A stretch of 64,000 nucleotides of DNA, taken from Liolophura sinensis. Taxonomy: Eukaryota > Mollusca > Polyplacophora > Chitonida > Chitonidae. A program made the position numbers and the translations under genes. Location of the stretch: assembly GCF_032854445.1 (NCBI RefSeq), contig NC_088306.1, forward strand, positions 3,594,373 through 3,658,372, in the 5' to 3' direction. Each line of letters begins with the position of its first letter. Position 1 is the first letter of the stretch. The notes below the pieces were generated by a model. It was not told where the DNA came from. It was given only the letters and a program-made list of their open reading frames with translations, and ran no database searches. Shown in pieces: positions 9,203-39,300 of the stretch.

Positions 9203-9218
9203 TCAATTTATCAATTTC

Positions 9219-9912: not shown

Positions 9913-9990
9913 TGAGTGAGTGAGTGAGTGAGTGAGTGCTTGGGGGTTTAACGTCGTACTTAACAATTTTTCAGTCACATGACGTCGAAT
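9913..9990 (+). mobile_element. SINE-like fragment with gagt microsatellite
   Basis: A run of tgag repeats is followed by 'gcttgggggtttaacgtcgt' and 'acttaacaatttttcagtca'. This second conserved motif differs from the main SINE tail; I associate it with molluscan repeats. One copy only. Confidence 0.5.
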
Positions 9991-10015
9991 ATTGTACAAG
10001 ACGAAACCGTACATC

Positions 10016-10450
10016 GTATCCTGCTTGGGAACCTATGCTATCCTGAGGGAGGAACCATTCTATCCTGCATGGGAATCTATGCTATCCTGAGGGAGGAACC
10101 ATCCTATCCTGCATGGGAATCTATGTTATCCCGAGGGAGGAACCATCCTATCTTGCATGGGAATCTGTTATCCTGAGGGAGGAACCATCGTATCCTGTAT
10201 GGGAATCTATGCTATCCTGAGGGAGGAACCATCCTATCTTGCATGGGAATCTATGTTATCCTGAGGGAGGAACCATCCTATCCTGTATGGGAACCTATGC
10301 TATCCTGAGGGAGGAACCATCCTATCCTGCATGGGAATCTATGCTATCCTGAGGGAGGAACCATCGTATCCTGTATGGGAATCTATGCTATCCTGAGGGA
10401 GGAACCATCCTATCCTGCATGGGAATCTATGTTATCCTGAGGGAGGAGCC
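10016..10450. repeat. minisatellite, about 44 bp unit, about 10 copies
   Basis: The unit 'tcctgcatgggaatctatgc' plus 'tatcctgagggaggaaccat' recurs about ten times with few changes, then decays to about 10530. It lies in intergenic sequence. Confidence 0.95.
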
Positions 10451-12220: not shown

Positions 12221-12330
12221 CTACGACTGGTCCGCAGAAAACTTTACCAACACCGTTCCCTTGGAAACCGTGTCGCCAACTTTGAAATGACCTTTTCTAC
12301 GATACCCGCTCTTGGAGCTCGAATGACGTA
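12221..12330 (-). CDS. MCCC1: MCCC1 exon 17, C-terminus with apparent frameshift
   Basis: The acceptor 'tttctattccag' precedes TACGTC. The first part reads [14 protein letters not shown]; the second half of the biotinyl domain ([19 protein letters not shown]) and a TAG at 12221-12223 lie in another frame. The exon is 110 bases where 111 would keep the frame, so one base seems missing near 12285-12287. As written, the frame ends at a TAA at 12244-12246 after unrelated residues. Confidence 0.9.
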
Positions 12331-15300
12331 CTGGAATAGAAATGAAATGATTAAACAATTAATATGATGAGCGTAAAGTGTTAAATACGCAGATACTTTA
12401 AATTGCAGTACCGTGAAATAAATAAATGTTTTCATCTCCACATTATTTAAAGAGCACATATTGCTAAGCTTTTTCAGCTTTTCTCGAAACAATATGTTCA
12501 ACAAAAAACTTTTAATACGATATGGTGATAGACGTGTAACTTTACACGTGTAGTACCCGTTTCTCTCCCATGCGAAGAGTCCAGCTTTGTTAGCTAACAG
12601 ACATGGGAGGACCTCCGTGGTCAAGAGGGTTAGCACGTCAGCGCGGAGCAATGACTCAGGAGCCTCTCACCAATAAGGTGGCTGTGAAGTTCAAGTCCAG
12701 CTCATGCTGGCTTCCTCTTCGGTCTTCCTCTTCAAGCAACCTACGGATGGTCGTTGGGACGGCCCCGTACTCTGCCCGGTTTCCTCTCACCATAATGCTG
12801 ACCGCCGTCGTATAAGAGAAATATTCATGAGTACGGCGTAAAACAGCAATCAAATAAAATAAATAAATTTTTGTATACGTCTGTATCAGTATAATTTTAT
12901 TCCATGAACAAATTCAGCAAGGTGACAATGGAAGCGGAACTACAATATAGCAAATATCTTAATTTGCACACTGTAACAGTCAATAAAATTAATTTCTCTT
13001 TGCTTTGGAAACATGCAATTTAGCCTTTTCCCCGGTGCTCGAAAATGGAGAAACATATCAATCCCAAGAAATACTCGACCAAAAGCCTACTGAATTCACT
13101 TATTGCCTGTCAATGAGCCCAAACTGTCTTCTTCCACCCTTAAGTATATTTGCCACATTTTGCCACATTTGCCACATTCCGTTCAATTCGCTGAGAAAGT
13201 TAACTGCATTGAATTCAGTCACTTATCAACAGCAGGGAATACAGCTGTTACTATAAGTTATACTTCAGATGGTAGAATTTCAGGCGGACGCAAATGTTTG
13301 CTTGCCTTGTCTACGCCTGTCTTGAGGTAGTTTAACTGAAGTGTCATTGACAGACAACATGTAAATTGTTCAATTCATGGCTAGAATCAAATTTCTCCCT
13401 TGTTTGCAATTTGTATATTTTGACAATGTTTACAAGGACAATCTCATCCAGAAGAAATGCCGTCGTCCAGCCTGGAAAACCCCACCGTCAAACTAACCTG
13501 TTTATAGCCCGTGGGTTCTCTTGTTTAAAAATCAAAACATCTAAATCTTTCCAGCCTTGTGTAAAATCAACTCTAAAAATGAGAACTTTCACCTTGTATG
13601 TAAACAGTCACCTTAACGATAGGAGTAAAGTGATTAAGAGAAAAGCAGTTAAGTGTAAAGGTCAAACTCTTAACGATGAATGTAAAATCTTTGGTTCTGG
13701 AAGTCAAAAAAAAAGGTAGAGTAAATCGTCGAACTCCTAGAGGTGACTTTTCACTCAGCGGTACGTCTATTACTCTTAGCCTTGGTTTTCGATACAGGAT
13801 TGATTTCACAGGTATAGGTTACACACTTTGCTCCTCCAGGCCTACATTTGCCTTCCCAGACAACTCCAGTATAAGGCTTGCACGGAAGACAATAAACAGA
13901 CATGCCGAGTGAGAGTGGTACGAATAAACACGACCTAGATTGCACGGTACATATGTGGGTCGGGAAACACTTACTGGGACATCCCTCACTGACAACTTAC
14001 ACAGGCCGGTAACTCCTACCTCTATCCTGTTCATAAATATCAGTTATACCCGCCGTACGTATGTCTTGAAACAATGAAGTCTTTAATTTCAAAAAACGTT
14101 CAAACTCTAAACACTTTCAAGTAGTGTACTTCAAAAAACAACGTTTTCATAACGACTCCATGTTTCGGCTTTTATTTAGCCATCATTAGTGCTTTCTTTC
14201 ATGAAAGGATAGCAAAATAAAAGCCAAAATGGCTAACAACCACGTTTAACGCCATTGGATATTTACCAAGACTATGTTTCGCCCATAACGGGAAAGTCAA
14301 ACTGTTTGATTCTCTTCTAAGACAATCCCATTTTTGTCTCATTAAAACATTACAAGTTTTAAAAACCTCCGGTACACGATTGAGAAACCACAAACAAGAG
14401 CTAAAATCAATCCTCAGTGATAGTTATAATTTAACCTGCAAAGAAAATACACGTTTCTCCATGAACCCAAAATATTTCTTATCCACAAGAAAAATTGGAA
14501 TGCGTTAGACGTTTGCCCAAAGTTCCCTAATATTTGGAAGATCTACCACAGTCTGTTTTCCCTCAGCATAACCGAGGCTATCGACAGAACACATGTTCTC
14601 CCCCAGTAGTAACTGACCTAGTTTTCTTAACATCAAGAAAACAGATAATGGTCTCTCTCTGGAACTCTCTTGTGGGAAAGGTAGGGTTATTCTACCGGAA
14701 GGAAGTACCTTCACAAAACAAGACTTCCCACGTGCACAAACAACACACGTTGTCCATAGGAACAGCAATTAGCCAAATATACAGTGAATCTGTACGACCA
14801 TACCAGCGCACTATCTATAGACGTGTCCCAGAGGGTTAGAAAATAGAGTTTCTCAGGAAAAACAAATTAGCGTCATTAATTTGGCCTCCACATGAGATCA
14901 CACGACGGAGATTCATACAAGTTTGTTTATCAACGAATCTCAACTTCCCCGCCCAATGTTTGCTCGTCCCTTTCTACTTTTTCGCGCGATAATTTCCCCC
15001 CAAAATTAACCAAACACTACACGGTACCCTCCACTTTCAAAAGTGTGAGGCCAAAATAAGCCTAGTTTAAGCCTATTTTCAACTTAAACATACTTAAAAA
15101 AAAAACAGAACTCAATGCAACATTTTCCCTATTCCATGTTTTCAGCAAAGCAAACAACTAAAGAACCATTTTATAAAGCCACGCCAGCATTTTCTCTTAC
15201 ACAAAGAACGACAGAACATGAATTTCATCTTGCATCATCATGCTGGATATGAATTCCTTTTTACGATTTGTGTACTGCACTATATACACTTTGGTATATT

Positions 15301-18300
15301 AAACATTAAGATATGGGTACTATTGCCAGAAAAACCGTTAGTACTGAGCCTGTTTTAAGGTGTTTTTTTTACCTTCAAACATTTTCCCTTCGTTTTGGCC
15401 GACAAATTGGTGTTTAACGTCCTACTCAAGCATTTTTCACTTTTCCCACTGTGGTCAGTTTTATGGATCACCTTGCGTAAACCACCGAAATGTGATAGTT
15501 GAACGATCAACTTTAGAACGTATGGCGTACCTGACTTGTCCGCCACATTCCTGGAAAACAAAGTGGCCTGACTTCAGCGAATGTGTAAACGACCCTTTCA
15601 GTGTCCCTACCGACACTGAATGTGGTTATCCTGTGAGTCAAGAATTCTACCACGGCTCACCTCCATTTTCATGGCGATCATAACAACCAGAGGGTCTCCC
15701 TGTGCCACTGCCGTGTCGTCCTTCACTATCACCTTCTCGATTACCCCGGGCATGGGCGCCACAGCCCCTCCCTTATCTCCCAGCCCCGCCGCTCCACCCA
15801 AAAACTCTGGGGTAGGGATCCGTAGCTCACAGTCACCGTCCTGTGGGAAATGATCAAATTATAAATCTCAATAAAATCATTCGAAATTCAAAATATTACC
15901 GGGGGTTCAGCTCAATGTTACCGTCCTACAATATCCCACACCCTTAAATCGCAACAAAATCATAACAATTCAAACTATAAATACAAAAAGGTGTAGAACT
16001 ATTCATGGGCTACATTCAGGAGATAAACAATTCCACAACGTCATTATCAACACAACAGGGAATCTACAGCATAAATCATCTAACACAAAATATGTACCTG
16101 AAAGAACAGTTTCACATAATATGAAAGAACCTAAAAGTTATCTAGATTTTTTGAAGGGGGTGGGGGGGGGGAGGGGTAGATCTTAATAAATTTGCACTGG
16201 TTTAAAACAATCAATTTATGGCGCCGATTCTACAAAAAAATGTTTTTGGAAAATCATGTTTCAAGCTTAAGTTTCACTATTTTATGTTAAATCTCTTTTT
16301 CTGGATTGTTAATTACATCAAACGATATAGAATTCAATTAATCTTTGTTAATAACGAAAGACGAACACGCTCACCGTAGTAAACAGATGGATGGCGTTTC
16401 CGGATATGACCACGTTAGCGGAAGTTCGAACTCCCTCCATTTCGCAGACGAGTTTCACGCGATCGTCTCTCGTCTGCATGTTTCCACAGAGTTCGTAACG
16501 TTTCCCGCCAGTTTCCATTGTGAATGAACCATCAGAGTTGTACGTCACCGCGACCGTTAATTCTGGTAACAAAATTAACCAAAGAAGGCATTTATCTAAA
16601 TGCATTCGGTCACAAACAGGTTTTGATTGTTTGATTTATTTCATTTTAACAAGTTTATTTAGTAAGGCGCATTACATCTACACAAAATGGAATTAATTTG
16701 AAGTACGTTTCACATTTACATCAATGCGATTGTTTCAGCTCTGTTTCATTTTACCACTTTATATATAGTGATTCTGTTTCTTTACTATCACATTTTCCCC
16801 TTTAATTTTACCTAACAGTCATATACATTGTGTCCAGCATGGCAATATACAAAACAAAAGCTTGGGGATTTCACTACATTGTAGCGTCCCATAATATAAG
16901 CCTTTCTGCATTCATACATTCTAGAGCTCCTTAATTGCAGAGGAATTCCAAAAAGGCATACCCAGGGTTGTCTTAAAAGGTGTTATTTTCAGATAAATAG
17001 CATCAGTTTGATGTTAGCTGTCAGTTTCTTACACGTCTGTTAACACGTTCATTTCTTTCACAAGTTGTTTTGTTCTCCATAAACGCAAATAGGTAAGCAT
17101 ACGACAAGTCAACATGAAGGATTCAGAAAAAATAGGACACATTTATTTTTTAAGAAAATGTTTATTCCCTTTTCCTTTCTACTATATAAAAGTTTATATC
17201 TGGTTTATTTTTAGAACGGTGGAAAAACGACTCATTCCTCAATCGTTACCTTCCATTTACTGCGACTCCATTTCTCAATGGGGTTACAGAAAAATTTTCT
17301 CATGTCTTTTACACAGTATAGAGCCGAGGCAAGACATGAACCACTTTGGACGGGTTGCGACAATGAGACTACTGTCCAGTTATCAAAAGATGATGGAAGG
17401 ACCACCGTGCAGAGAAAGATATGCGACAATGCACACAGTCAAGATGACGACCCTGAAGATGATGATAGAGAGAACGGCCGGCACAGCAAGGTACGAGACT
17501 GTGAAGGTGTACAGTTCAATAGTAAAGGGGGAACCGAACAAGCAAAAAGAAAGAAAGCAAAAAGAAAGAAAGCAAAAAAAATACAAGCAAATGTCAAAGT
17601 GACAAGAGCAAAACCGGTTACCCTTAAACCAGGGAGAAAGAAACTTCATCGACAGGGCCATCCATTCAAAATGGCGGGCTGAGCAAAAGAGTAAAAAAAA
17701 ACACCGTTTTGTCATGTAATGCTACAAAATATACACGGTTGGAATGCGTTTACAAGACTTCACTGAGGAGAAAAAAGAACCGACAAACAATCATGTGAAG
17801 ATCTGCAGCAATGTTGCCTGAAACCGGTGTAAGCAAAAGCTCATAAATTGTCTGCAGGCAACAAAACATAAAAGTGAATTTGGCATCGTCTGCATGCCAT
17901 CTTTCCTGAAGAGGGCACAAGAACAGGCGATAGCATGTCAAAACATCAGAGCCAAAACATCAGAGAAAACGCAACCTAACCGAATTTAGTTAATCTGCTG
18001 ATTTCTGTTAACAATTATTTATTTGCTTGTTGATCTTAAATCCTATCGGTCAGGTACTGACGGGCTATCTGAGGTGTGAAGTACAGATGCTGACGGGCAA
18101 TCTGACGTGTGACGTACACAGATACTGATGGGCAACTTGACGAGTGACATACAGATACTGACGGGCAATCTGACGTGTGACGTACAGATACTGACGGGCA
18201 ATCTGACGTGTGACGTACAGATACTGACGGGCAACCTGACGTGTAACGTACAGATACTGACGGGCTATTGACGTGTGACATACAGATATTGACGGGCAAT

Positions 18301-21300
18301 CTGACGTGTGACGTACAGATACTGATGAGCAATCTTACGTGTGACCTACAGATACTCACGGGCTATTTGACGTGTGACATACAGATACTGACGTGTGACA
18401 TCCAGATACTGACGGGCTAGACGTGTGACGTCCAGATATTGACGGGCTATCTGACGTGTGACGTCCAGATACTGACGGGCTATCTGACCTGTGACGTACA
18501 GATACTGACGGGCTATCTGACGTGTGACGTACAAATACTCACGGGCAATCTTACGTGTGACGTACAGATACTCACGGGCTATCTGACGTGTGACATCCAG
18601 ATGCTGACGGGCTATCTGATGTGTGACGTACAGATACTGAGGGGCAATCTGACGTGTGACATCCAGATACTGATGGGCTATCTGACGTGTGACATCCAGA
18701 CACTGACGGGCAATCTGACGTGTGACATCCAGATACTGACAAGCTATCTGACGTGTGACGTACAGATACTGACGGGCAATCTTACGTGTGACGTACAGAT
18801 ACTGACGGGCTATCTGACGTGTGACATCCAGATACTGACGGGCTAGACGTGTGACATCCAGATATTGACGGGCTATCTGACGTGTGACGTCCAGATACTG
18901 ACAGGCTATCTGACCTGTGACGTACAGATACTGACGGGCTATCTGACGTGTGACGTACAGATACTCACGGGCAATCTTACGTGTGACGTACAGATACTCA
19001 AGGGCTATCTGACATGTGACATCCAGATACTGACGGGCTATCTGACGTGTGACGTACAGATACTGAGGGGCAATCTGACGTGTGACATCCAGATACTGAC
19101 AGGCTATCTGACGTGTGACATCCAGATACTCACGGGCTATCTGACGTGTGACATCCAGATACTGACGGGCTATCTGACGTGTGACATCCAGATACTGATG
19201 GGCTATCTGACGTGTGACATCCAGATACTGACAGGTTATCTGACGTGTGACATCCAGATACTGACAGGCTATCTGACGTGTGACGTACAGATACTGACGG
19301 GCAATCTTACGTGTGACATCCAGATACTGATGGGCTATCTGACGTGTGACATCCAGATACTGACAGGCTATGTGACATGTGACATCCAGATACTGAGGGG
19401 CTATCTGACGTGTGACATCCAGATACTGATGGGCTATCTGACGTGTGACATCCAGATACTGACGGGTTATCTGACGTGTGACATCCAGATACTGACGGGC
19501 TATCTTACGTGTGACATACAGATACTGACGGGCAATCTTACGTGTGACGTCCAGATACTGACGGGCTATCTAACGTGTGATGTCCAGATACTGACAGGCT
19601 ATCTGACGTGTGACATCCAGATACTGACGGGCAATCTTACGTGTGACGTACAGATACTGACGGGCTATCTGACGTGTGACATCCAGATACTGACGGGCTA
19701 TCTGACGTGTGACATCCAGATACTGAGGGGCAATCTGACGTGTGACATCCAGATACTGACAGGCTATCTGACGTGTGACATACAGATACTGACGAGCAAT
19801 CTTACATGTGACGTACAGATACTCATGGGCTATCTGACGTGTGACATCCAGATACTGATGGGCTATCTGACGTGTGACATCCAGATACTGATGGGCTATC
19901 TGACGTGTGACATCCAGATACTGACAGGCTATCTGACGTGTGACGTACAGATACTGACGGGCTATCTGACGTGTGACATCCAGATACTGACGGGCTATCT
20001 GACGTGTGACATCCAGACACTGACGGGCTATCTGACGTATGACAACCAGATACTGACGGGCTATCTGACGTGTGACATCCAGATACTGACGGGCAATCTT
20101 ACGTGTGACGTCCAGATACTGACGGGCTATCTGACGTGTGACATCCAGATACTGACGGGCTATCTGACATGTGACATCCAGACACTGACGGGCTATCTGA
20201 CGTATGACAACCAGATACTGACGGGCTATCTGACGTGTGACGTCCAGATACTGACGGGCTATCTGACGTGTGACATCCAGATACTGATGGGCTATCTGAC
20301 GTGTGACATCCAGATACTGATGGGCTATCTGACGTGTGACATCCAGATACTGACAGGCTATCTGACGTGTGACGTACAGATACTGACGGGCTATCTGACG
20401 TGTGACATCCAGATACTGACGGGCTATCTGACGTGTGACATCCAGACACTGACGGGCTATCTGACGTATGACAACCAGATACTGACGGGCTATCTGACGT
20501 GTGACATCCAGATACTGACGGGCAATCTTACGTGTGACGTCCAGATACTGACGGGCTATCTGACGTGTGACATCCAGATACTGACGGGCTATCTGACATG
20601 TGACATCCAGACACTGACGGGCTATCTGACGTATGACAACCAGATACTGACGGGCTATCTGACGTGTGACGTCCAGATACTGACGGGCTATCTGACGTAT
20701 GACATCCAGATACTGATGGGCTATCTGACGTCTGACGTACAGATATGCACACCTTATTGGTGTAAGATAAATGGCTTCCAACAAACGGTTGACTTCGCAA
20801 AATGGCCGCACCAGCGTCGTGGTCGATTGATTATTATCAGAATAGCCCCACAAACAGTAAGAGCGGAGGAATCCGTTCACGGATTAAAATGTATGTTGGA
20901 CTGTTTAGAATTCCACGTTATTCAATCATTTAACTCTTGGAATTAAAAACTCCCAGCCCAATAAGCCTGAGCTGGATTCGAACGTCGGACCTCAATGGTC
21001 AGCTGGCTAACATGCCACGGTAACAAATAAACCAGCGAAATCGCCCATGTTTTCAAGACTACTCTGAAGTTTCTAATTATGTACTGCATATGACAGATCG
21101 CACAGCTGATCCCCAGAATATCAGTATTGTAGAAACAACCAACAAGAAGTATTCTGCCTGGGATGTTAATCCTCTTAAGGATCTTAAGGTTCTATCAAGA
21201 TAAGCTCTAGATGATTGATAGCATGGAGACCTTTAGCCAAATATAACTCAAAGCGCCCTCTACCTTGTACCTGAGCAACTAAACCTACCAATACCAATGT

Positions 21301-24300
21301 AACTCAAAACGCCCTCTACCTTGTACCTGTGCAACTACACCTACCAATACCAATGGGCTGATGATCAACCAATCATCATTCACAACATGGTCTCTACTCA
21401 TTAGCTGCAAATATCGTGTCGTTCAGTAAACTTAACATTACACACAGTTGTCCACTTAGAGGACATTTTCTGTAAAATTCATGAATGACATTTATTTAAT
21501 AATTATATATATATTCATGCAGTAAATACATTCCAGGATCTGTATGTATAAATTAAGCTGAATCATTTGTTTACTTCGTTAAATCTCTTTATTATTAACT
21601 GTCTTAATTATTCCCGGGCCAGGTTGTTCAAAACTGGTTTAAGACTTAATACCTGATTTAACTTTAAGCTAAGTCTTGAGTTTTGTTCTTGACCTAAAAA
21701 AAAATTGTATGCCATTATATTAAACATGAAATAAAACTGTTCCTGTTGGAGAAATGCACAGGCATTTTTTAAATATAAAATATGATTTTATAATAGCAGT
21801 ATTAGCTAAAACACTTCCTAACAAGTGGGTCCTGGAGTTTGAGGATACTTAACTTACTTTTGTCACCATCCTCAAGAGTTACGGTTCTTGGTAATGAGCC
21901 ATTCATTCGGAATCCACAGCCAAACCCAAATGGGGAGAATGGATCTGAACAAAGGAAATAATGACATAACTGAAAAGTAACATCATCTATATACTTATAG
22001 CCAAACCCAAATGGGGAGAATGGATCTGAACAAAGGAAATAATGACATAACTGAAAAGTAACATCATCTATATACTTATAGCCAAACCCAAATGGGGAGA
22101 ATGGATCTGAACAAAGGAAATAATGACATAACTGAAAAGTAACATCATCTATATACTTATAGCCAAACCCAAATGGGGAGAATGGATCTGAACAAAGGAA
22201 ATAATGACATAACTGAAAAGTAACATCATCTCTATACTTATAGCCAAACCCAAATGGGGAGAATGGATCTGAACAAAGGAAATAATGACATAACTCAAAA
22301 GTAACATCATCTATATACTTATAGCCAAACCCAAATGGGGAGAATGGATCTGAACAAAGGAAATAATGACATAACTGAAAAGTAACATCATCTATATACT
22401 TATATGTAGTAAGTATCTGAAAGAAACAGAAACTACCCATTATTTGCCAATGATTAATGTCGTCAAAATTGTAGTTAATATTTTTACACAACTATCTTAA
22501 TCTGTCTGCTCTGTCAGATGTTAGATTACTCTCTCCACAACAGACCGTTCAAATCCATCCATTCGAAGCTCTGTCGAAAGATACCTATTTTCCAGACATG
22601 AGTGAAAAGTGACATAATTTGTGTTAGGCAATGAACACTCTGTAAGAAAAATACCTTTGGCAAACAAGTAAAGTATTTTCACTGGTCGAAGTGGGTGCTT
22701 GTCTCCATTAATATTCACATTCACTTTAATGTGCAGGTTAGCGACTACCAAGCCTTGCATTTACAATGAAATAAAAACTACTTCAACAATACCTGGTGCC
22801 ACCAATCAGCCACAAGTGGAACACAAATAGTCCTCATGCTTAAAACGTGACCCCTATGACCAAATCAAATTTGACCCATATTCAGCTTTCCACATCCCAC
22901 AACAAAATGTTACATCTTACAATGTTACGATCGTTTCCTTCGCTTATTCTGGATTATGGTAATTAGCCATGTGCATCTGATTAGTGAGCTCTTTCAGTAA
23001 AGGTATCAGACACTACGAGGGTGTTCTTCATTCATGTACTGAGCATGATGTTTGATTGTCAAGACTGACATACAGGTGTGTCTGACTGTCAAGGCTGACA
23101 TACACATGTATCTGATTGTCAAGGCTGACATACAGGTGTGTCTGACTGTCAAGGCTGATACAGGTGTGTTTGATTGTTATGGCTGACATACAGCTGTGTC
23201 TGATTGTTAAGGCTGATACAGGTGTGTCTGATTGTTTGTCAATACAGGTGTGTTTGGTTGTCAAGAATGATATACAGGTGTCTGATTGTCAAGGCTGACA
23301 TAAAGGTGTATCTGATTGTCAAGGCTAACATACAGGTGTGTTTGACAGTCAAGGCTGACATACAGGTGTCTGACTGTCAAAGCTGACACACAGGTGTATC
23401 TGATTGTCAAAGCTGACATAAAGGTCTGTCTGACTGTCAAGGCTGACATACAGGTGTCTGACTCTCAAGGCTGACATACCGGTGTCTGACTGTCAAGGCT
23501 GACATACAGGTGTCTGATTGTCAAGGCTAACATACAGGTGTGTGTGACCGTCATGGCTGTGAAACACAGTCACAATGGCTGTTATGATTGTCAAGTCTGA
23601 CATACAGGTGTGTCTGATTGTCAAAGCTGACATACAGGTGTGTCTGACTGTCAAAGCTGACATACAGGTGTGTCTGACTGTCAAGGCTGACATACAGGTG
23701 TCTGATTGTCAAGGCTAACATACAGGTGTGTGTGATCGTCATGGCTCTGAAACACAGTCACAATGGCTGTTATGATTGTCAAGTCTGACATGCAGGTGTA
23801 TCTGATTGTCAAGGCTGACATAAAGGTGTCTCTTGATTGTCAAGGCTGACATACAGCTGTGTCTGACTGTCAAAGCTGACATACAGGTGTGTCTGACTGT
23901 CAAGGCTGACATACAGGTGTGTGTGGCTGTCATGGCTGTGAAGCACAGTCACAATGGCTGTCATGATTGTCAAGGCTGACATACAGGTGTCTGACTGTCA
24001 AGGCTGACATACAGGTGTCTGACTGTCAAGGCTGACATACAGGTGTCTGACTGTCAAGGCCGACATACAGGTGTCTGACTGTCAAGGCTGACATACAGGT
24101 GTCTGATTGTCAAGGCTAACATACAGGTGTGTGTGAGCGTCATGGCTGTGAAACACAGTCACAATGGCTGTCATGATTGTCAAGTCTGACATACAGGTGT
24201 GTCTGATTGTCAAAGCTCACATATACGTGTGTTTCAATTTGCAGTACAACACCTTTGTTATTTATCAGTTTTTACACAGTAATACGTATTTAAAATCTTA

Positions 24301-27300
24301 CCTTTAGATAGCGCACTTGACAGCTGAGTTTGTTGCTGCTCTGTTAAAAGTAAGGCCAATACAGCTTGACACAGTCTGCTATGGGAGAGTTCTTGTAAGG
24401 GGAATAACTCCTCACTATGCTCCGCTATAAAGCCTGTATGTACGTGACCTTTCTCAAACTGAGGATGTTTGGCAAGGTCATGAAGAAATCCTATATTTGT
24501 TGGAAGACCCACGACCTGCATAATAAAAAATCATAAATCTATCTAGGGTGTATACTTCATTCTGTTTAAAAGCATTACAGCACCTGTAAGAGAACAACCA
24601 ATATTACAGCCATCTGCTTCTTCAAATGACAACTAAAAACATTATCAGCAGCACAAACACCACTGAAAACTCAACCTAAAAATACCTTCACTTATTGTTT
24701 ATTTTCCTGATTTTGAGAGTTCTGTTGATTTTGGAACGGTGTTCTGCGGAAAATAGGATGATATCCTACTAGAAAATTGTTTCAGCTCCAAAAATACTAT
24801 TTTCTGACATTTATTTACCTCAAAAATGCACATTTTAGAGTGGATTATGATTTACAGTAACTTCTGAAACTTTCTTTAACAAAATTAACTGCATTTAATA
24901 TGTGTGTGAGTTATAAGGTGGGCTTGTATTTCTGGGCTTTGAAGACATCACAGAACATTTTTTACCTTAATGCTTTCTAAATGGTGATGTGAACATGAAA
25001 TTAAATAGTTTATTAAGGTTATAAGAATTACAATTACAAAATTACAAAAACATTGCACCCAAAGACAGAATAACCACGCATTCTACACTGTTCTGCTTGC
25101 AGTCGTGAGTTTAAAAAGATTTCTTTTTCTTTACCAATTTTTAAAATTATTTTGTACAATAATGTCATTGTTAGACCTTCCTGCCATTGGGTTATTCACA
25201 ACACAGATTTCCTAACGTTTATATAAAACAAAAAAACATTATTACATTCACATCTTTCAGACAAGAAAATATTTGTGTTCTATTAGAGGAAGAATACGAA
25301 GACGAAAAAACAGCTACAAACATATGATGACTCTTTTTCAGCTTGTCTAATTTAGAAAATAATTTTATATCCAAGTCATGCTGATGACCTTTGCCATATT
25401 CTGAATAAATAACTCTGACCTCATCAGGAAAATAATAGGTTAATGCCTCGTATTACGGAAGCAAAAAAAGGCTATCCTCATTATGTCAAGATTGAAAAAT
25501 GACAAAATAATTATCATGTTTTCTACAATATCAACCACAGCAAAAAAAAAACATACTCTTTGGACATACAAGACTAGACAACCCTGTTGGAACTGTATGT
25601 GAGGCCTTGGTGACAATAAATGATAAACTGCAAAGTTCGTTAATAATTTTCATCGCCTCTTTCACACTGCCCACAGAAACTGCGGTCCCTTCAACCAGAA
25701 AGCTGACAGCATTCATGTGAGTGAAAAAGTTTTTGAGTGTGGCACTACAAAAATAATCACAAAAGTAAGTAGATTACAAACATGTTCTCAGTGGCATGCT
25801 TCTAAGTAATAAAGGCAACCATAACTGTTTCCTACCATTTCTATGCACACCACTGGCAAGCTACAGTCAAACCACAGGCAAGCTACAGGCAAACCACTGG
25901 TAAGCTACAGGCAAACAACAGGTAAGTGACAGGCAAACCACAGGCAAGCTACAGGCAAACCACAAGTAAGGTACAGGTAAACCACAGCTCAATAATAGTT
26001 AAACCACATGCAAGCTACAGGCAAACCATGGGCAAGCTACAGACAAACCACAGGCAATCTATAGCACAAAAGCAAACTATTCCATTTCCCTTTGCCAGCT
26101 CTGAGCTTGTCTCTTTAAAAAAACAGCCCTACTGTAGCCCTATCTTACATGTATGATGTTTAAACAAAAGCAGAACTGTTTTTTTCCCACCAAAAATAGC
26201 ATTCTTTTAGGCAAATAACTGTCATAAAATATTACTTGTTATCATCCTGCAACTTACATGTTTCCTTTAGGATGTTACCCAACATGTACATTTGAAACAA
26301 ACTTCAAAACACCTTTGTGAGATCAATAGAACTCATGGAAAAAATTAGCAAATTAGCTGCGGTAGAAATTTTAGGTCAGCTATACTAAGTGCCCTAAATA
26401 TCCATTAAACTATGATTAGTTAATATATCAAAGTATAAAACAAGTATTTTTGTTCATAAATTTATATTCTGAAATGCCACTTCATGATATAAATAGATAC
26501 ATAATAGTACATGAGCGAAAAAAAATATCTGCCTCTGGATTGACATAAATGGATCATGTTAAAATTGATGCAGTTTCTAGTCAGGGGACATTTACAAAAT
26601 ATCAATGTTTAAAAAGAAAGGACAAAAAAAAGCCAACTTGTTGACAGATGATGTCAATTAAACGAGTTCTGACATATACGGATGAGGACAGAGCCATTTG
26701 AGTTACATCATAATTCAGCCCAAAATAATCTGAAGACAGATTGTGCTCTGTCAATCTTTCTAATTTTGGAGCACATCGTGGATCTGCTGTCTAAAACGAC
26801 AAATTAGGGTCAACCAAACAGATATATTCTGCCATGAGAAGACAATCGCAATAGGCCATGTACAAGGACATTATCAGAGGCACATTTTTATATTCTTCAG
26901 CGTCGTTCCAGACAAAAGGACAGTTGGAACAAAATTCTATTTTCAAACAGTACCCATTTTTTTTCAAAACAGGAAATATATCGTTGGCAGGATGATATCT
27001 TAAACTGATAAAATTATCACCAACATCCCAAGATTATACCTTACAGAGAGAATTAGCTCTCAGCTTTGAAAATTATATGTGACAAAATTATCTCTCAGCT
27101 TTGCAAAATTATATCTGACAAAATTATCTCTCAGCTTTGCAAGATTATATCTGACAAAATTATCTCTCAGCTTTGCAAGATTATATCTGACAAAATTATC
27201 TCTCAGCTTTGCAAGATTATATCTGACAAAATTATCTCTCAGCTTTGCAAGATTATATCTGACAAAATTATCTCTCAGCTTTGCAAGATAATATCTGACA

Positions 27301-30300
27301 AAATTATCTCTCAGCTTTGCAAGATTATACCTGACAAAATTATCTCTCAGCTTTGCAAGATTATATCTGACAAAATTATCTCTCAGCTTTGCAAGATAAT
27401 ATCTGACAAAATTATCTCTCAGCTTTGCAAGATAATATCTGACAAAATTATCTCTCAGCTTTGCAAGATAATATCTGACAAAATTATCTCTCAGCTTTGC
27501 AAGATTATACCTGACAAAATTATCTCTCAGCTTTGCAAGATAATATCTGACAAAATTATCTCTCAGCTTTGCAAGATAATATCTGACAAAATTATCTCTC
27601 AGCTTTGCAAGATTATATCTGACAAAATTATCTCAGCTTTGCAAGATTATATCTGACAAAATTATCTCTCAGCTTTGCAAGATTATATCTGACAAAATTA
27701 TCTCTTAGCTTTGCAAGATTATATCTAACTGACATAATTATCTCTCAGATTTTACAGATTATATCTAACAGGAAATATCATCATAACTATAATAACTTGG
27801 TAGAATTACTTCTGAACTTTTCAGATTCTAATCTTAACTCAGCAGGATTACAGTACATTTTAACTTGGTAGAAATATATCTTAGGTTTGATTATATCTCA
27901 ACTTTGCAGTACTGTATTCTATGATGAAATAGTCAAATTAAAAATACATTTACGGCAAAATGTTACAAAATTACAAATTTCTTTAGCATTTCGACATGTG
28001 TTATAGATTAACTTAAACATTACTTTTCGTGGAAAATCTGAAGTAAGCCAGTCTTACTCTTACTGGATTATTGATGTGTTACAACTGAAAAAACAATTTT
28101 CATTAAAAATATTTAAAAAGAAAGACTAAACACATTACTTTAATTTTACATCCTGTAAAATGTAAAACCTGAAGGCCGCTACAGTTTTTAGTTCTGTTAA
28201 GCAACACTCTTACAACACCTGGAACATGTTTCATTGATAATTTATCTGGAATAACTTTTTTTAAGATAAATCTTCCTTCGAAGTTTTGCAATTAGTGGCT
28301 AATGTTTAATAATGGAATTTGTTATTGACACCTTAACCTGGGAAAAAAACCCCAACCTTTATATTTGTATGTTTTACTTTCTATTTTCATTTTCACCTGT
28401 GGTGAAATTTTGTTTTGATGTTGGTATACTCATACTCAAAAACAATCTATTTCAGAATGTTTGGTAAAAAAAAAGTTTGTGCGATAATTGACCATAAGGC
28501 CATCAGGCTTGACCATAAGACTTGGTCATAAGGCTTGGCCATAAGGCTTGACCATAAGACTTGACCATAAGGCTTGACCATAAGACTTGACCATAAGACT
28601 TGAGCATAAGGCTTGACCATAAGACCATAAGACTTACCACAGAACTCTAACATTTGACTGCTTCTAAATCAGTTCTAAAAAAAAAAGTTCTAGAATAAAT
28701 AAGGTAGTGTCAGTTGTAATTTTCAATCGTACTTTTGCTGAGAACAGCTTCATTATCACTTTTTGACATACAAAGTTGGGTAATCTAAAGAAAACAGCTT
28801 ATAACATCACTGTATTTCACCTACAGTTTTGCATTTTTCAGGAGGCACACTTTCTTTCCTTGATTATGACTGATTCGTCCACCTTACAGGGTCACCTTAC
28901 AGGGTCACCTTACAGGGTCACCTTACAGGGTCACCTTACAGGGACACCTAAGAATCTTTTGTTGAATTCTGATTAATCAGAAAATTACTCAAGAGTTGAC
29001 ATTTATTGATTTTTTTTTGGGGGGGGGCGTGTAATTTCCTATCAGATAAAATTTAAGTGTTGGCATCAAAAGTATCACGTAAAGACCTTGATTGTGCTTG
29101 AGTGTCTTTTTACGTACCAAACTTTAAGTGAAATACTGGAATTTGAGCTTTCAGAGCCCACATAGTATTGCTCACTGTACTTACCTTGTTAAATAGATTC
29201 TACCTTGGTACAGAATGACTGAATGATTGTCGCTAAAGGCCACATTCAGAATATTGCAGACATACTGTGGTAAGAGGTTGTTCCAAATACAGAAGACAAC
29301 AGCTCAGAGCAGTAAAACCAGACACGACAGTGCGACAGTTGGCTCTCTCATACCCAACCCATCCCCTTGACAACCTCAATCAGGGTTTCATTCTGAACTG
29401 TTCATATAAATGCTTAAACACACGTATTAGCACCACTGTCCCAGTAGATATTAGTTTAAAAATGCAGTGATGCTCATTGTAATTTATTCTATTACCCTTC
29501 GGTTCCTTTTAATTACCTACAATGCACTGCTTGGTACTGTGCCAAGAGTACATTATCTGAGTCGTTAAATACCCCCCATCACGAGACAGAAGCGTTTGAC
29601 TTCTGGACGGGTCTATTGTAGTTCTATGGGGGGATAGAGGTTGTTGTTTACATTGAATAAAGCAGGCGACAAATATAAACAAAGAAACAAAATGGTTATT
29701 TTTTCTGTTGGAGCGAACGTTTATTTTAAAGGAGAAAAGTATCAGGTTACAGATAATTTAAGCAGACCTAAAATATAAACTCTTCCACATCGATGTGATG
29801 TAAAACTACCGTTAGACTACCCTGACACAAACGTTATTTCTTAATTAGATGTTACGGTCTAGCATTACTCCAAGAGATGTGTTCTTGGCACATTTAACAT
29901 ACAACAACATTAAAACAATACAAAGGAATCTGGGGCCAACACCACAAAACAATTTCCAACTTTTTGGACATTATGACACAATTGTCTTAAGATAACATTT
30001 ATGACAGAATCAAAATTTCAACTTTCTATGTACCAAAATTATGCTCCAAGGTCGATTTCCGATTTTCGACGTCAGTCAGAAATGGCTTTACGGAGCCTTG
30101 GCAATGTCGGGGGAAAATACTGATCTATGCAGACACACAAGAGGCTAAAAACAGTTACTGAACTTTAATATATATACTTACATTATAATCTCTGAGGGAG
30201 GAACATAGACGTTTGAGGGCAGAGTGTCTGTCGTTGGACCAGACCACAAGTTTGGCAATCATCGGGTCATAGTGAACAGAAACCTCATCCCCTATTCAAC

Positions 30301-33300
30301 AACAAAGTTAACACCCCAGATTATTTGCTTATTCTACTTTTGCTTGGTACCACACTCAAGGACTCCTTACTTTTATGATGGTGGTTAGTTTTATAAGTTA
30401 AGAAACCAAAGTGCAGAGAATAAACCAACAACCTTTGGCAAGTTACTTACAAACTTTCCCTCCTGTGACATACATGTACAGATTTATATATGACACTGAT
30501 GTAGACTAGCAGTCTTTATTAGTGCTGTTAACTCCTGATGGCATTCAGAAGTTTCTGTTCCTTGAATATCCCCATCCACTTGTATTTTACACATATCTCA
30601 ATACATATTTTTTTTAGAACAATTAACATTCTCCTAACACAAGAGTCAATCAATTTATAATATCTTTTCTCGGAAATCATGTCGCCTTCTGATGCTTTCA
30701 CTCAGGCAATACATGTAATATCATTGATGAGAAAAGCTACAAGAAATTGGATTTCTGAAGTTTTGTGAAAGTGGCCAGAGTATCCGAACCATTCACACAC
30801 AAAGTTTTTTTCCATGAAATAGAAGTTGAAAAGGATCCAAGAATTACTTCAAGATAAAATATGGTGCTTATCATTTCATGTCATGAAGAAATGGCAAGTC
30901 CACAGTGCTATGGCTGGAGAACACCATGGCTAAACACTGTCAACAATACAATCTGAGATAAATGTATGTGATCAAGATGGCCAAGTGGTTAGCATGCTAG
31001 CGCAGCACAATGACTCAGGAGCCTTTCACCAACTCGGTCACGGTGAATTTAAGTCCAACTTAAGCTATATTGTACATGTGGCTTCCTTTCCAGGTATTGA
31101 TTTCTTTTTTTTTTTTTTTTTGATTGGTGTTTTACGCCGTACTCAAGAATATTTAACTTATACGACGGCGGCCAGCATTATGGTGGGTGGAAACCGGGCA
31201 CAGCCCGGGGGAAACCCACGACCATCCGCAAGTGGCTGACAGACCTTCTCACGTACGGCCGGAGAGGAAGCCAGCATGAGCTGGACTTGAACTCACAGCA
31301 ACCGCATTGGTGAGAGACTCCTGGGTCATTACGCTGCGCTAGCGCTTTAACCGACTGAGCCACGGAGGCCCCCGCTCCAGCTATTGAGAAAGTCTGCGAG
31401 CAAGTGTGTTTCTCACAGACTCTGTCCGGCTTCCTCCCACCATAACATTGACCCCCATCATGTATAAAGTGAAACATCCTTGTGTATGGCATAAAACACC
31501 CATCCTTTACTCAATACAATTATCAAAACAAAAGTTCCTCTCCAGCCGTACGTGGGAAGGACTGTCAGCAACCTGCGGATGGTCATGGGTTTCCCCCCGG
31601 CTCTGCCCGGTTTCCACCCACCATAATGCTGGCTGCTGTCGTATAAGTGAAATATTCTTGAGTACGGCGTAAAACACCAATCAAATAAATAAATAAATAA
31701 ATCGAAAAAAGTGAAAAAGAATTGGCTATCTGGTGGTACCTTGTCTAACCCCTGTATCTATTCTCACATGCTCATCCTTTTCTGGTGTGCTCAGGTGAAG
31801 CAGAGGTCCTGCCCCAGGCATGAAGTTGTTACGGGGATTTTCAGCATAGATTCTAGCTTCAAAGGCGTGGCCTGTAAGTGTTACCTCTTCCTGCTTCATG
31901 GGCAAGGTATCGCCACTGGCAACCTGTGAAATGTACATGAATATCAAGACCTAGCTTTTCCTGAAAAACCAATGATTTGTACAGTCATAATTTCACACTT
32001 TCATCAAACTGAGTAGAAATTACAAATCAGAAATACAAATAACATAAAATAACGATCATAATGACCAAATACATCAAGATATAGTTTCATTCTACACTGT
32101 GTTTTTCCCAATGTACATTCTAGATGGTGCAAATCTCCCACAAGTTTACAACACTTCATGAATTGCACTGTTAGAAGAAGAGGAACACAGAGAATTTATA
32201 TTATATCGGGTAGGCCTAAAAAAATCAGCCATACTTTGATGCTGCATTGCTCCATTATCCTTTGTTCAAACCCTTTCAAACTTTAGATATTGAAATGGCA
32301 TGATTTTGTTAATATACTGACTAATTTTCGGGGTCATAGCTTGAGGAGTCTGTACACAGGGTTAAAATGAAAACATAGCCTCAAAAACACATGTTCTGGT
32401 GACCCACATTCCATTACCTGTCAGGTGTCATGAGTAGAGCGCGCGCTGCACCTGTGTGACACGCGTCAATCAAGTGTTGTCTGGAAAAATTGTCTGGCTC
32501 TAGTGTCAGAGAAACCCTTCTGCCAGATAGGCACAAGTTTTGCTGAATCAAGATGGTTTTCTCTGTGGCGGACAAGGAACTGATCACCTTTTCAAATAAA
32601 ACAAGGCAGAACATCATTTTGAAATGTCCGGAACCTGCGTTTTTTGACTTTTCCTGCATTTTTTTGATTTTGGTCTCATGAACAGAAATCTTAAAGGATG
32701 AAATTGAAATTTGGTCTGTATACTCAGGACATACTGTCTTTCGAGTGTGTAAATTTTTAGAGGCTGACTTAAGAGGGTTTTTGGTGATATTGAGTGTCAA
32801 AATATGGCCCATTTTTTTATGCTCACCCGATACATGCAGAGATGTTTTTGTTTTGTTTGTTTTTTTTACGTATCACTGCATAAATCAGGACTTCTATTTT
32901 CAGGTTTTACTTGGAAAGAAAGGATGTAGAACCATTTGCTGTAGCAGCCACACTAAAGGTTCTCAGGGGCATGTTCTCATCAGCCCATCACAAATTCATC
33001 ACTAGCACACCACAAATTCATCACTAGCACACCACAAATTCATCACTAGCAAACCACAAATTCATCACTAGCACACCACAAATTCATCACTAACACACCA
33101 AGAATCCATCACTAGCACATCATGTATCTGTCATTAGCACACCAAGAATTCATCACTAGCACACCAAGAACCCATCCCTAGCACACCACAAATTCATCAG
33201 TAGCACATCACGAATTCATCACCAGCACACCATGAATCCATCACTAGCAGACCATAAATTCATCACTAACACACAATGAATTCATCACTAGCACATCATG

Positions 33301-36300
33301 AATTTATCACTAGCACACCATGAATTCATCACTAGCACATCATGAATTTATCAGTAGCACATCACGAATTCATCACTAGCACATCATTAATTTATCAGTA
33401 GCACACCATGAATCCATCACTAGCAGACCATAAATTCATCACTAACACACTATGAATTCATCACTAACACACTATGAATTCATCACTAGCACACCATGAA
33501 TTCATCACTAACACACTATGAATTCATCACTAGCACACCATGAATCCATCACTAGCACACCATGAATTCATCACCAGCACACCAAGAATTCATCACTAGC
33601 ACACCATGAATTCATCACTAGCACACCATGAATCCATCACTAGCACATCATGAATTTATCACTAGCACACCATGAATTCATCACTAGCACATCATGAATT
33701 TATCACTAGCACACAATGAATTCATCACTAGCACACCATGAATTAATCACCACCACTCCATGAATCCATCACAAGCACACCATGAATTCATCACTAGCAC
33801 ACCATGAATTTATCACTAGCACACAATGAATTCATCACCAGCACACCATGAATTCCTCACTAGCACACCAAGAATCCATCACTAGCCCACCATGAATTCA
33901 TCACTAGCACACCAAGAATTCATCACTAGCACACCATGAATTCATCACTAGCACACCAAGAATTCATCACTAGCACACCATTAATTTATCACTAGCACAC
34001 CAAGAATTCATCACTAGCACACCATTAATTTATCACTAACACACCGAGAATCCATCACTAGCACATCATGTATCTGTCATTAGCACACCAAGAATTCATC
34101 ACTAGCACACCAAGAACCCATCCCTAGCACACCACAAATTCATCAGTAGCACATCACGAATTCATCACCAGCACACCATGAATCCATCACTAGCAGACCA
34201 TAAATTCATCACTAACACACCATGAATTCATCACTAGCACACCACGAATTTATCACTAGCACACCATGAATTCATCACTAGCCCACAATGAATTCATCAC
34301 TAGCACATCATGAATTCATCACTAGCACACCATGAATTCATCACTAGCACATCATGAATTCATCACTAGCACACCATGAATTCATCACTAGCACACCATG
34401 AATTAATCACTAGCACACCATGAATTAATCACCACCACTCCATGAATCCATCACAAGCACACCATGAATTAATCACTAGCACACCATGAATTAATCACCA
34501 CCACTCCATGAATCCATCACAAGCACACCATGAATTCATCACTAGCACATCATGAATTCATCACTAGCACACCATGAATTCATCACTAGCACACCATGAA
34601 TTAATCACTAGCACACCATGAATCCATCACTAGCACATCATGAATTTATCACTAGCACACAATGAATTAATCACTAGCACACCATGAATTCATCACTAGC
34701 ACACCATGAATTAATCACCACCACTCCATGAATCCATCACAAGCACACCATGAATTCATCACTAGCACATCATGAATTCATCACTAGCACACCATGAATT
34801 CATCACTAGCACACCATGAATTCATCACTAGCACATCATGAATTTATCACTAGCACACAATGAATTCATCACTAGCACACCATGAATTCATCACTAGCAC
34901 ACCATGAATTAATCACCACCACTCCATGAATCCATCACAAGCACACCATGAATTCATCACTAGCACACCATGAATTTATCAATAGCACACAATGAATTCA
35001 TCACTAGCACACCATGAATTCATCACTAGCACACCAAGAATTCATCACTAGCCCACCATGAATTCATCACTAGCACACCAAGAATCCATCACTAGCACAC
35101 CAAGAATCCATCACTAGTACACCATGAATTCATCACTAGCACATCATGAGGTTGTCAACAGCACACCAAGAATCCATCACTAGCACACCATGAATTCATC
35201 ACTAGCACACCATAAATTCATCACTAGCACACCATGAATCCATCACTAGCACACCATGAATTCATCACTAGCCCACAATGAATTCGTCACTAGCACATAA
35301 TGAGGTTGTCAACAGCACACCAAGAATCCATCACTAGCACACTTGTACTGGAACATTTTTTCACTGTTTCATCATCAGTCTACAGGTCAACTATGGGAAG
35401 GCCACAGACTTACTTACCAGGCTGTCTATGAGAATTTGTCTGTCTTGTAGAACATACATGTCCCATATTTACATAAACTTATTTATGTATTTGATTGAAG
35501 TTTTATTTCATGTATTCAATGACAGCCAGCATTTTGGTGGGAGGAAACCTGACAGGGTCCAGGGGAAACCCACACCCATCTGCAGGATGCTGGCAGAAAT
35601 TCCTACAGATGGTCGGAGAGGTTAGGTAACCAGCATGAGCTGGAATTGAACCTGACATAAAGCGATTCAATGCAGCGTATCCATGTCTGATTGGGGTTTA
35701 ACCACTGAACAATTTCTCAGTGATATGCCAAGGAGGAGCCATTAGGTGTCTGTACATCAATGTACTGTATGCAGCTAGCATACAAGTATTGACACAGGGG
35801 AAGATAATTTGGCTGGTTATACCCGCAGCTGCCACTCCACCAGGTCTGTTCCTGTGACCATCTCAGTGACTGGGTGCTCCACCTGGAGGCGAGTATTCAT
35901 CTCCATGAAATAAAACTTCTGGTTTTTGTCCATGATGAATTCAACTGTACCTGCAGGAGATAAATTCATTAATTCAACTGTGCCTGCAGGGGATAAAATC
36001 ATGAATTCAACTGTGTCTGCAGAAGATAAAATCATGAATTCAACTGTGCCTGCAGGAGATAAAATCATGAATTCAACTGTGTCTGCAGAAGATAAAATCA
36101 TGAATTCAACTGTGTCTGCAGAAGATAAAATCATGAATTCAACTGTGTCTGCAGAAGATAAAATCATGAATTCAACTGTGCCTGCAGGAGATAAATTCAA
36201 GTCAACCCATTTCTTGATTGTTGTAAGTACACTTAGTAGATAAAAATGAAATTTAAGAATTTGATACAATCCTTTGAAACTGTTCAAAGGAACAAGAGAA

Positions 36301-39300
36301 AGATGTATGAAGAGTCTAGTTTTGTGAAAAGGGAAGCCATGGCAAATTCACAAATTTCTGTTCTACCTGTCATGTACTATTTACTTAAGATTTCTAGTTT
36401 TAGACAAACTGTTAGGGTAAACTTCCTTCTAGTTTTCTTTTTCCCCTGACAGTTGACCTCAGAAATCTATGAATATTTTTTTTTCCTGAGTCAAAGGATG
36501 CCTTTATGTCTGTCAAAGGATGCCTTTATGTTTGTCAAATGATGCTTTTGTGTTTGTCAGAGGATGCATTTATATCTGTCAAAGGATGCCTTTATGTTTG
36601 TCAAAGGATGCCTTTATATTTGTCAAAGGATGCCTTTATGTTTGTCAAAGCATGCTTTTATATTTGTCAAAGGATGCCTTTATGTCTGTCAAAGATGGCA
36701 TTTATGTCTGTCAAAGGATGCCTTTATGTCTGTCAAAGGGTGCCTTTATGTCCGTCAAAGGATGCGTTTATGTTTGTCAGAGGATGCTTTTATGTTTGTC
36801 AAAGGATGCCTTTATGTTTGTCAGAGGATACCTTCATGTTTGTCAGAGCATGCCTTTATGTCTGTCAGAGGATGCCTTTATGTCTGTCAAAGATGGCCTT
36901 TATGTCTGTCAAAGGATGTCTTTATATTTGTCAAAGGATGCCTTTATGTTTGTCAAAGGATGCCTTTATGTCTGTCAAAGGATGAATTTATGTTTGTCAG
37001 AGGATACCTTTATGTTTGTCAAAGGATGCCTTTATGTCTGCCAAAGGATGCCTTTATGTCTGTCAAAGGATGCCTTTATGTCTGTCAGAGGATGCCTTTA
37101 TATCTGTCAAAGATGGCCTTTATGTCTGTCAAAGGATGCCTTTATGTCTGTCAAAGGATGGCTTTTTGTTTGTCAAAGGATGGCTTTTTGTTTGTCAAAG
37201 GATGCCTTAATGTTTGTCAGAGGATGTCTTTATGTTTGTCAGAGGATACCTTTATGTTTGTCAGAGGATGCCTTTATGTCTGTCAAAGGATACCTTTATG
37301 TTTGTCAGAGGATGCTTTTATGTTTGTCAAAGGATGCCTTTATGTTTGTCAGAGGATACATTTATGTCTGTCAGAGGATGCCTTTATGTCTGTCAGAGGA
37401 TGCCTTTATGTCTGTCAAAGATGGCCTTTATGTCTGTCAAAGGATGCGTTTATATTTGTCAAAGGATGCCTTTATGTCTGTCAAAGGATGCCTTTATGTT
37501 TGTCAAAGGATGCTTTTATGTTTGTCAAAGGATGCCTTTATGTTTGTCAGAGGATACCTTTATGTTTGTCAAAGGATGCCTTTATGTCTGCCAAAGGATG
37601 CCTTTATGTCTGTCAAAGGATGCCTTTATGTTTGTCAGAGGATACCTTTATGTTTGTCAGAGGATACCTTTATGTTTGTCAAAGGATGCCTTTATGTCTG
37701 CCAAAGGATGCCTTTATGTCTGCCAAAGGATGCCTTTATGTCTGTCAAAGGATGTCTTTATGTTTGTCAAAGGATGCCTTTATATTTCTCAAAGGATGCC
37801 TTTATGTCTGTCAAAGAATGCCTTTATGTTTGTCAAAGGATACCTTTATGTTTGTCAAAGGATGTCTTTATGTTTGTCAGAGGATGCCTTTATGTTTGTC
37901 AGAGGATGCCTTTATGTTTGTCAAAGGATACCTTTATGTTTGTCAAAGGATGTCTTTATGTTTGTCAAAAGGATGCCTTTATATTTCTCAAAGGATGCCT
38001 TTAAACCTTGCAGATTTATGTACGGTTATGTATACATGTTGAATGTCAAAAAAAGAATAAAAAATGTCAATAACAAAAATATAATTTCAAAAAATGTAAA
38101 AAGAATATAACAAAAGTCTGCGTGTAAAAATGGCTTCCAAATCATCAAACATACATGCACCTGCACCCCAAGATTAAAGCTCTTTCTCTTCTAGCATTTT
38201 TAGGACAATATCCACTATTTCATGCCAAATTTAATTTATTTTCATTTCAAAAATAAAAAGTCATCTTCAATGGCACAAAATATACCAGTTTAATCAAAAC
38301 CAGTGAAATATTTTTAAAAGATTTACACAATTTCGAGTGTGCATATACATGTTTCCTGCTCAGAATAAATGCATGTGTAATTTAGTTAAAGGTGAACTGC
38401 AAAGTCTTTAACTTTGTCTTTAACCTTGCAAATAAGGCCAAAAAAAAGTTAATTAAATGTTTCTCAGACACCATTGCCTAATCATTTCACCAAAGGTTAG
38501 CCCCTTTATAATCAAGGTCTCTGTCAATCAAAAATTTCATCCAGGTGGGAGGAAAGGGGAGATAATTCACCAAGAAAATCTAACATACCTGCCCCAACGT
38601 AGTTAACTGCCCTTGCTGCCCTGACTGCTGCCTCCCCTATAGATCGTCGCACCTCTTCCGATAAACCGGGCTGAAATGAAAAGAAATACGAAATAAATAC
38701 ATATACAAATTGTAAAAGAATGAAGGCAATACTTCGATGTTAACTGCTCCCCGGCGGATTTTTCTGGTAACAATACAATATAAAGTGTAAGTGGCCTTAC
38801 TCGATGTGATGCTTTTTTCTATGACTAAGAGCCTTTGATTTGTTGATTTCCAAGCCAAATGGCCCTGCTGGCCTTTCGATTTTCGGGGCTTATTTCTACC
38901 CAGTTTCACAAAACTTCTTGCGTTCAGTAACCTGTTCATGTTACCTTTTTGGACTCCTGGAGTGTTCCTCCACACACTCTTACTCAAACACTATATATAC
39001 AGTATAATAACTATGTTACCTTAGCAAGACACCTTTGCTTCAGAAGGAAACTTAGAAGGTTTCACGAAACCAACCCCTGAAGTTCATGTTACGCCACAGA
39101 GGATTAGAGTAGTCTTGTTACTTACCGCTGGAGCTTCTTCTATGACCTTCTGGTGTCGTCGTTGTACACTGCAGTCCCTCTCAAACAAATACACGTAGTT
39201 ACCATGGCTATCACCAAACACCTGCACCTCAACATGTCTGTGTGAGAAATGGGATCAATTATGACATGAAAACAGAGAACGCCAAGAACAAAGTAGCATG

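Follow-up and report, generated by a model that had tools for sequence, protein, structure and literature searches.

When an exon begins inside a tandem repeat, so that its splice acceptor is present in several near-identical copies, which copy is used? The question is raised by MCCC1 in the chiton Liolophura sinensis, in the window (the whole stretch of 64,000 nucleotides that was analysed), where the acceptor of one coding exon stands six times in a row. The first-pass annotation named the two possible outcomes: either outer acceptors are used and the exon grows, or only the inner one is used and the spliceosome discriminates by position. Those were the right two branches, and the evidence gathered here favours inner-only use by position over outer use.

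Acceptor arrays in the MCCC1 gene

Fifteen coding exons of MCCC1 were recognised, and the labels E2-E16 are our own count of these. The Pfam families PF02786, PF02785 and PF00364 are matched in that order along the gene, and the best PDB match is human MCCC1. Tandem arrays hold two of the 15 acceptors and none of the 15 donors. The features discussed below are these:

12286..43521, reverse strand: MCCC1 gene, 15 recognised coding exons (E2-E16)
21918..22404, reverse strand: minisatellite of 81 bp x 6.0, from TRF and copy-by-copy comparison
21858..21944, reverse strand: MCCC1 coding exon E13, 87 nt by the innermost acceptor, with AAAA/GTAAGT as its donor; aligned with human MCCC1, the junction shows no insertion
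21944..21946, reverse strand: exon-proximal acceptor of E13 (AG at 21945-21946, first exon base 21944), the predicted used site, by inference from the genome-wide sample
22025..22351, reverse strand: five outer E13 acceptors, first exon bases 22025, 22106, 22187, 22268 and 22349, in frame and open if used
35935..36199, reverse strand: acceptor-spanning minisatellite of 33 bp x 8 (17 intron and 16 exon bases), from TRF, in frame and open
35950, 35983, 36016, 36049, 36082, 36115, 36148 and 36181, reverse strand: first exon bases in the exon 9 array
35823..35950, reverse strand: MCCC1 coding exon E9 (GTVEFIMD...WQLR), ATP-grasp core, inner acceptor 35950, PF02786 match with E=1.2e-16

The E13 array was reported by TRF with a period of 81, 6.0 copies, 99% matches and a score of 960, and it measures 487 bp in total. 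Each unit consists of a pyrimidine tract and AG, in the last 54 bases of the intron, followed by the first 27 bases of the exon. Copies 1, 2, 3 and 6 are identical, while copies 4 and 5 each differ from copy 1 by one base, and all six acceptors tie at a model score of 10.5. The first-pass annotation had described six tandem copies of an 81 bp unit at this exon, acceptors at 21944+81k and an exon frame open through all six, and each of these was borne out, by TRF and copy comparison, by position and by translation. Its arithmetic of 27 added residues per outer step, up to 135, is also correct. It had divided the unit into 55 intron and 26 exon bases, where the actual division is 54 and 27. Its placement of the exon in the linker between the carboxylase and biotinyl domains is roughly right: E13 lies between exons that match Biotin_carb_C and Biotin_lipoyl, and the nearer Biotin_carb_C exon reaches 26.3 bits, under the family cut-off of 32.4.

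The second array, at the acceptor of exon 9, was missing from the first-pass annotation, as was the genome-wide extent described below. The AG is present in all eight of its units and the frame is open. Both arrays are made of head-to-tail, near-identical units in the minisatellite range of about 10-100 bp (81 bp x 6.0 and 33 bp x 8). All outer AGs are intact, 5/5 at E13 and 7/7 at exon 9, and the arrays are young.

At both exons the inner acceptor gives the conserved protein. The peptide of 21858-21942 aligns with residues 534-559 of the human MCCC1 chain, with E=0.91 when searched alone; joined to its neighbours it aligns with E=1.3e-34, and the E12/E13 junction made with the inner acceptor is gapless, the two one-residue gaps of that alignment both lying away from the junction. 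Exon 9, joined through its inner acceptor, aligns without a gap to human MCCC1 (E=1.1e-32) and to Pseudomonas MCC alpha (E=1.1e-28), these being the two alignments examined among 20 matches. With an outer exon 9 acceptor, 11-77 extra residues would end up between GAG and TVEF, within the ATP-grasp core.

As a repeat, the E13 array lies well outside what chance would give, but minisatellites are abundant in the window. TRF arrays with a period of at least 10 cover 23.7% of the window in 34 merged arrays, and 30.5% of the part from 12 to 45 kb; the highest copy number is 107, of a 22 bp unit at 32993-35342. A whole-genome DNA search with 21700-22600 found the array at this locus only, among the 40 of 215 candidates that were scored; the 40 other rows listed match sequence outside the array.

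A separate observation concerns the last recognised MCCC1 exon (about 12286-12330, reverse strand), where an apparent change of frame occurs soon after the start, relative to the expected end of the protein. A sequencing error, an assembly error and a real lesion cannot be told apart there.

Junction arrays in neighbouring genes and across the genome

The 36 kb beyond the window end (C12:3658373-3694372) were also checked. They contain a PCCA gene, with PF02786 matches at C12:3680643-3684572; one of its exons matches six PDB sequences at E<=1e-10, all of them PCC alpha chains, the best with E=2.4e-16. Three donor-spanning arrays lie in this gene on the reverse strand, given here by their positions in the joined piece C12:3658373-3694372:

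8856-10081, reverse strand: donor-spanning array, 87 bp unit
13527-13990, reverse strand: donor-spanning array, 67 bp unit
27417-28056, reverse strand: donor-spanning array, 138 bp unit

The 87 bp unit may even contain a complete small exon with both splice sites, present about 14 times. In the first section of the same piece (L003), an S28-peptidase-like gene, whose exon scores 18.8 bits against a cut-off of 25, carries a repeat which is perhaps a junction array at the stage of birth:

L003 1837-1985, forward strand: two-copy repeat of 74 bp, acceptor and exon start

To see how common such arrays are, exon matches of five Pfam families (carboxylase ATP-binding, chaperonin, myosin, aldehyde dehydrogenase and kinesin) were sampled from the genome. 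A total of 276 of 298 rows were used; the rest were seven MCCC1/PCCA rows on C12 and 15 that were long, stop-ridden or already seen, and 18 PF00501 rows were kept out of the sample. The 276 rows merged into 188 regions, and the first 160 of these after a seed-1 shuffle gave 238 exon matches in 211,512 bases, 11.2% of which is covered by TRF arrays.

A splice junction lies inside a tandem array at 20 of the 238 exon matches (8.4%, interval 5.2-12.7%). Fourteen of these junctions are donors and six are acceptors, an excess of donors that is a trend only (p=0.12), and the hosts are conserved chaperonin, myosin, kinesin, carboxylase and aldehyde dehydrogenase genes. The 20 arrays and their TRF periods are as follows:

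Arrays: L020, L035, L056, L058, L059, L071, L076, L081, L089, L091, L106, L118, L121, L123, L126, L134, L142, L147, L150, L168
Acceptor array periods: 27, 41, 32, 64, 27, 95
Donor array periods: 71, 37, 55, 140, 31, 73, 40, 124, 66, 66, 109, 34, 30, 63

TRF output was inspected by eye for arrays close to the match ends, up to 40 nt away in the first 120 regions and up to 60 nt away in the last 40. The L056 acceptor was added after its sequence was read and is marginal, the TRF array reaching one base into the exon; the inner site of L020 is weak, with a score of 4.0; and automatic calls at the L056 donor and at L138 were rejected by eye. L135 was excluded as a partial exon copy inside the L106 gene. 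The exon concerned is a kinesin exon (L106/L135, C11:27412583-27415230) with a 73 bp donor array; near this array some of the exon's 3' part is present a second time, which gives a possible extra pseudo-exon. Members of the pairs L056/L123 and L091/L126 lie at most 9 kb apart on the same contig and the pairs are probably two genes, which puts the number of genes behind the 20 arrays at about 18. The longest donor run has 18 copies, all with GT (L091), and the longest acceptor runs have 12 copies, all with AG (L058), and 15 copies with AG kept in 11 (L089), as counted within the fetched pieces, past which the runs may continue. The sample suggests that tandem rows of splice sites occur at about one in twelve exons of this genome, and the E13 array is one of very many.

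Arrays are not attracted to splice sites. A single criterion was applied to junctions, intron positions and exon midpoints in the 160 regions, in a run which replaced an earlier control with unequal criteria for junctions and controls. On the donor side, tandem recurrence is seen in 29/235 cases at each of the intron positions 150 and 250 bp from the junction, against 15/235 for junctions; on the acceptor side the counts are 17/237 and 24/237 against 6/237, and at exon-match midpoints 4/238. The junctions in this control were called automatically, unlike those of the curated list, and by eye a few were false and a few curated ones were missed. Array coverage, taken over 140 regions, is 5% at the acceptor edge and 9% at the donor edge, and by 300 bp inside the intron it has risen to 16-17%. 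The lower rates at junctions than at intron positions rule out an attraction, and the arrays look tolerated at junctions rather than favoured: they land anywhere, and their purging from junctions is incomplete.

Such junctions may mislead both gene prediction and repeat masking. In the paper on the assembly, the class 'Other (simple repeat, microsatellite, RNA)' accounts for 0.08% of the genome, and the main text has no words beginning with 'tandem' or 'satellite' (PMC11068029). TRF arrays, in comparison, make up 11.2% of our exon-centred sample.

Choice among near-identical sites

The reading that we prefer, at a probability of roughly 73%, is that a young minisatellite lies across the exon start, that the exon-proximal acceptor would be the one used, by exon definition, and that the outer copies are mostly silent decoys. 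A tandem duplication of a short stretch over the exon start would have given rise to the minisatellite, which would then have grown to six copies, with a pyrimidine tract and an AG in every one. Exon definition, in which an acceptor is paired with the nearest downstream donor, is well established, and here it would pair AAAA/GTAAGT with the nearest acceptor and so bring the inner copy into the mRNA. The five outer acceptors would be mostly silent, and the outer copies would leave with the intron. The recognised coding pieces of MCCC1 measure 45-213 nt and the gaps between them 0.3-5.7 kb, sizes which fit exon definition.

Indirect evidence points to the inner copy. The conserved MCCC1 protein is gapless at both array junctions when it is used, and in 17 of the 20 sampled arrays the nearest outer site cannot make the protein, being lost or leading to a frameshift or stop (the outcome was read by eye for L142 and L020). 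The nearest copy gives an open in-frame insertion in the other three, L089, L123 and L147. Both MCCC1 arrays belong with this minority class (3/20), which speaks against our preferred reading, since outer use could be tolerated there.

If the inner acceptors are used, site strength is not the reason: the inner site ties with the others at E13 and has the lowest score of the eight at exon 9 (9.5 vs 9.6-11.0). Outer-site scores cover 16 of the 20 sampled arrays, all except L020, L142, L150 and L168. For donors, in line with use of the inner copy, the outer mean is below the inner score in eight of the nine scored arrays with unequal scores (the exception is L147, and three more tie), a comparison that is partly circular because the inner copy was picked as the recognisable junction. 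For acceptors, the inner site is ahead of the outer mean in three of four sampled arrays, only through outer AGs that were lost or decayed; the inner score is equalled or exceeded by 8/10 outer acceptors in L056, 4/6 in L071, 10/11 in L058 and 6/14 in L089, and the outer AG is kept in 4/6 in L071 and 10/14 in L089. As the acceptor scores do not help the preferred reading, its rating was lowered slightly.

The copy nearest the functional site has lost its GT or AG in L142, L020 and L059, which also points indirectly to use of the exon-proximal copy. Selection has possibly acted here against the nearest competitor, though the cases number only three. In L142 and L020, several farther copies keep the site although the nearest copy has lost it. 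A candidate constraint on outer donors (59/59 columns conserved) was dropped because the method had left out the lost-site arrays L059 and L142.

The first-pass annotation had stressed that all six copies are in frame, and the sample does not support taking the six-fold open frame as a signal: TRF periods divisible by three number 6/20 (expected 6.7, p=1.0), with 2/6 among acceptors and 4/14 among donors, where the actual first step may differ from the TRF period (it is 68 in L106 and L168). Selection for frame, which would enrich such periods if outer acceptors were used, was rejected on this chance level. The chance of a period divisible by three together with an open intron piece is 1/3 x 0.22 (about 0.07) for an 81-mer and 1/3 x 0.75 (0.25) for a 33-mer, so that a few open in-frame cases are to be expected among many arrays. 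For both MCCC1 arrays to be open has a chance of about 0.02 for the pair, a mild coincidence, and as such periods turn up only about as often as expected at random, the six-fold open frame at MCCC1 is probably luck. A further candidate, kilobase-long open introns (open-frame values above 1000 aa), was rejected at two loci, L007 (1339) and L008 (758), which have no such frame.

Partial use of the outer acceptors would make MCCC1 a ladder of isoforms, in 27-residue steps at E13 and 11-residue steps at exon 9, tolerated because they are in frame. The six equal-scoring acceptors at E13, the frame that is open through all copies of both arrays and the pyrimidine tract and AG of every unit are all consistent with such a ladder. 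So are two human parallels found in the consulted parts of the literature: IFI6 uses downstream repeat units as alternative donors (PMC4526556), and 66% of repeat-made intron modifications also have transcripts that keep the repeat (PMC2812944). However, the absence of any enrichment of periods divisible by three gives no sign of outer use common enough for selection, an insertion at exon 9 would fall within the ATP-grasp core, and open cases with such periods are expected by chance among many arrays. Based on this, a ladder seems unlikely.

It is far less likely that the array works as an array, with multiple acceptors raising splicing efficiency or variable-length protein repeats kept as a trait. 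Although one gene has two arrays, both in frame and with intact sites, intron positions 150/250 bp off recur in tandem more often than junctions do, and outer sites have decayed in L071 and L089, with the nearest one lost in L142, L020 and L059. Least credible of all is that the copies were made by misassembly of a single unit. According to its paper, the Liolophura japonica assembly has a coverage of only 14X, which leaves some room for such an error, but it was built from HiFi reads with a mean length of 8,347 bp, which would span the 487 bp array (PMC11068029). Copies 4 and 5 also carry private single-base differences, and 20/238 sampled exon matches have a junction array, in some of which, such as L142 and L089, the copies are old and diverged.

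We return, then, to use of the exon-proximal copy through exon definition. That copy is the last to be transcribed at acceptors and the first at donors, so that a single 'shortest exon' rule would serve in both cases. A simple scan from 5' to 3' that stops at the first AG would pick an outer copy. A broader claim, to which we would give even odds, is that a large share of the genes has minisatellite-made runs of 2-18 near-identical donors or acceptors, most of which would ruin the frame if misused, and that splicing reliably goes to the exon-proximal copy, be it transcribed first or last. If true, the genome would hold a natural experiment on a strict 'shortest exon' rule that is independent of site strength.

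Designed minigenes are the usual means of studying how the spliceosome chooses among equally strong sites. The chiton offers natural tests, with 2-18 near-identical sites in conserved genes where a wrong choice mostly means a frameshift or a stop, and existing RNA reads of the species could reveal the choice at once. What makes the case interesting is the wider phenomenon, that of naturally occurring rows of equal splice sites among which position probably decides.

Comparison with known systems

NAGNAG and other tandem alternative acceptors are competing sites a few nucleotides apart. The MCCC1 acceptors likewise compete at one exon start, whereas they stand 33-81 nt apart and each has its own pyrimidine tract.

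A closer likeness is human IFI6, in which, as described in the parts of PMC4526556 that were consulted, a minisatellite over an exon-intron junction creates multiple donors and two downstream units are used alternatively; the original report is cited there as Turri 1995. In IFI6 as in MCCC1 the minisatellite overlaps the junction and the splice site lies within the units, with the AG and adjoining exon and intron present in 6/6 and 8/8 units of the two MCCC1 arrays. IFI6 is a case of donors in one gene, whereas the MCCC1 sites are acceptors, with donor versions elsewhere in the genome and about 8% of sampled exons affected. Alternative use of units has been reported for IFI6.

In human segmental duplications, internal tandem repeats at exon-intron boundaries account for 27 intron modifications in paralogs, according to the consulted parts of PMC2812944. 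There too, minisatellites alter exon-intron boundaries. What those parts describe is variation among recent paralogs and novel introns, while the chiton arrays are in conserved genes and present many near-identical copies of one existing site. A search of the open-licence literature, by titles and the starts of abstracts, found no precedent for junction arrays in a mollusc or genome-wide. Human precedents of the same kind exist; the chiton case differs from them in that conserved genes carry arrays of acceptors, and what is new is the prevalence, close to one in twelve exons.
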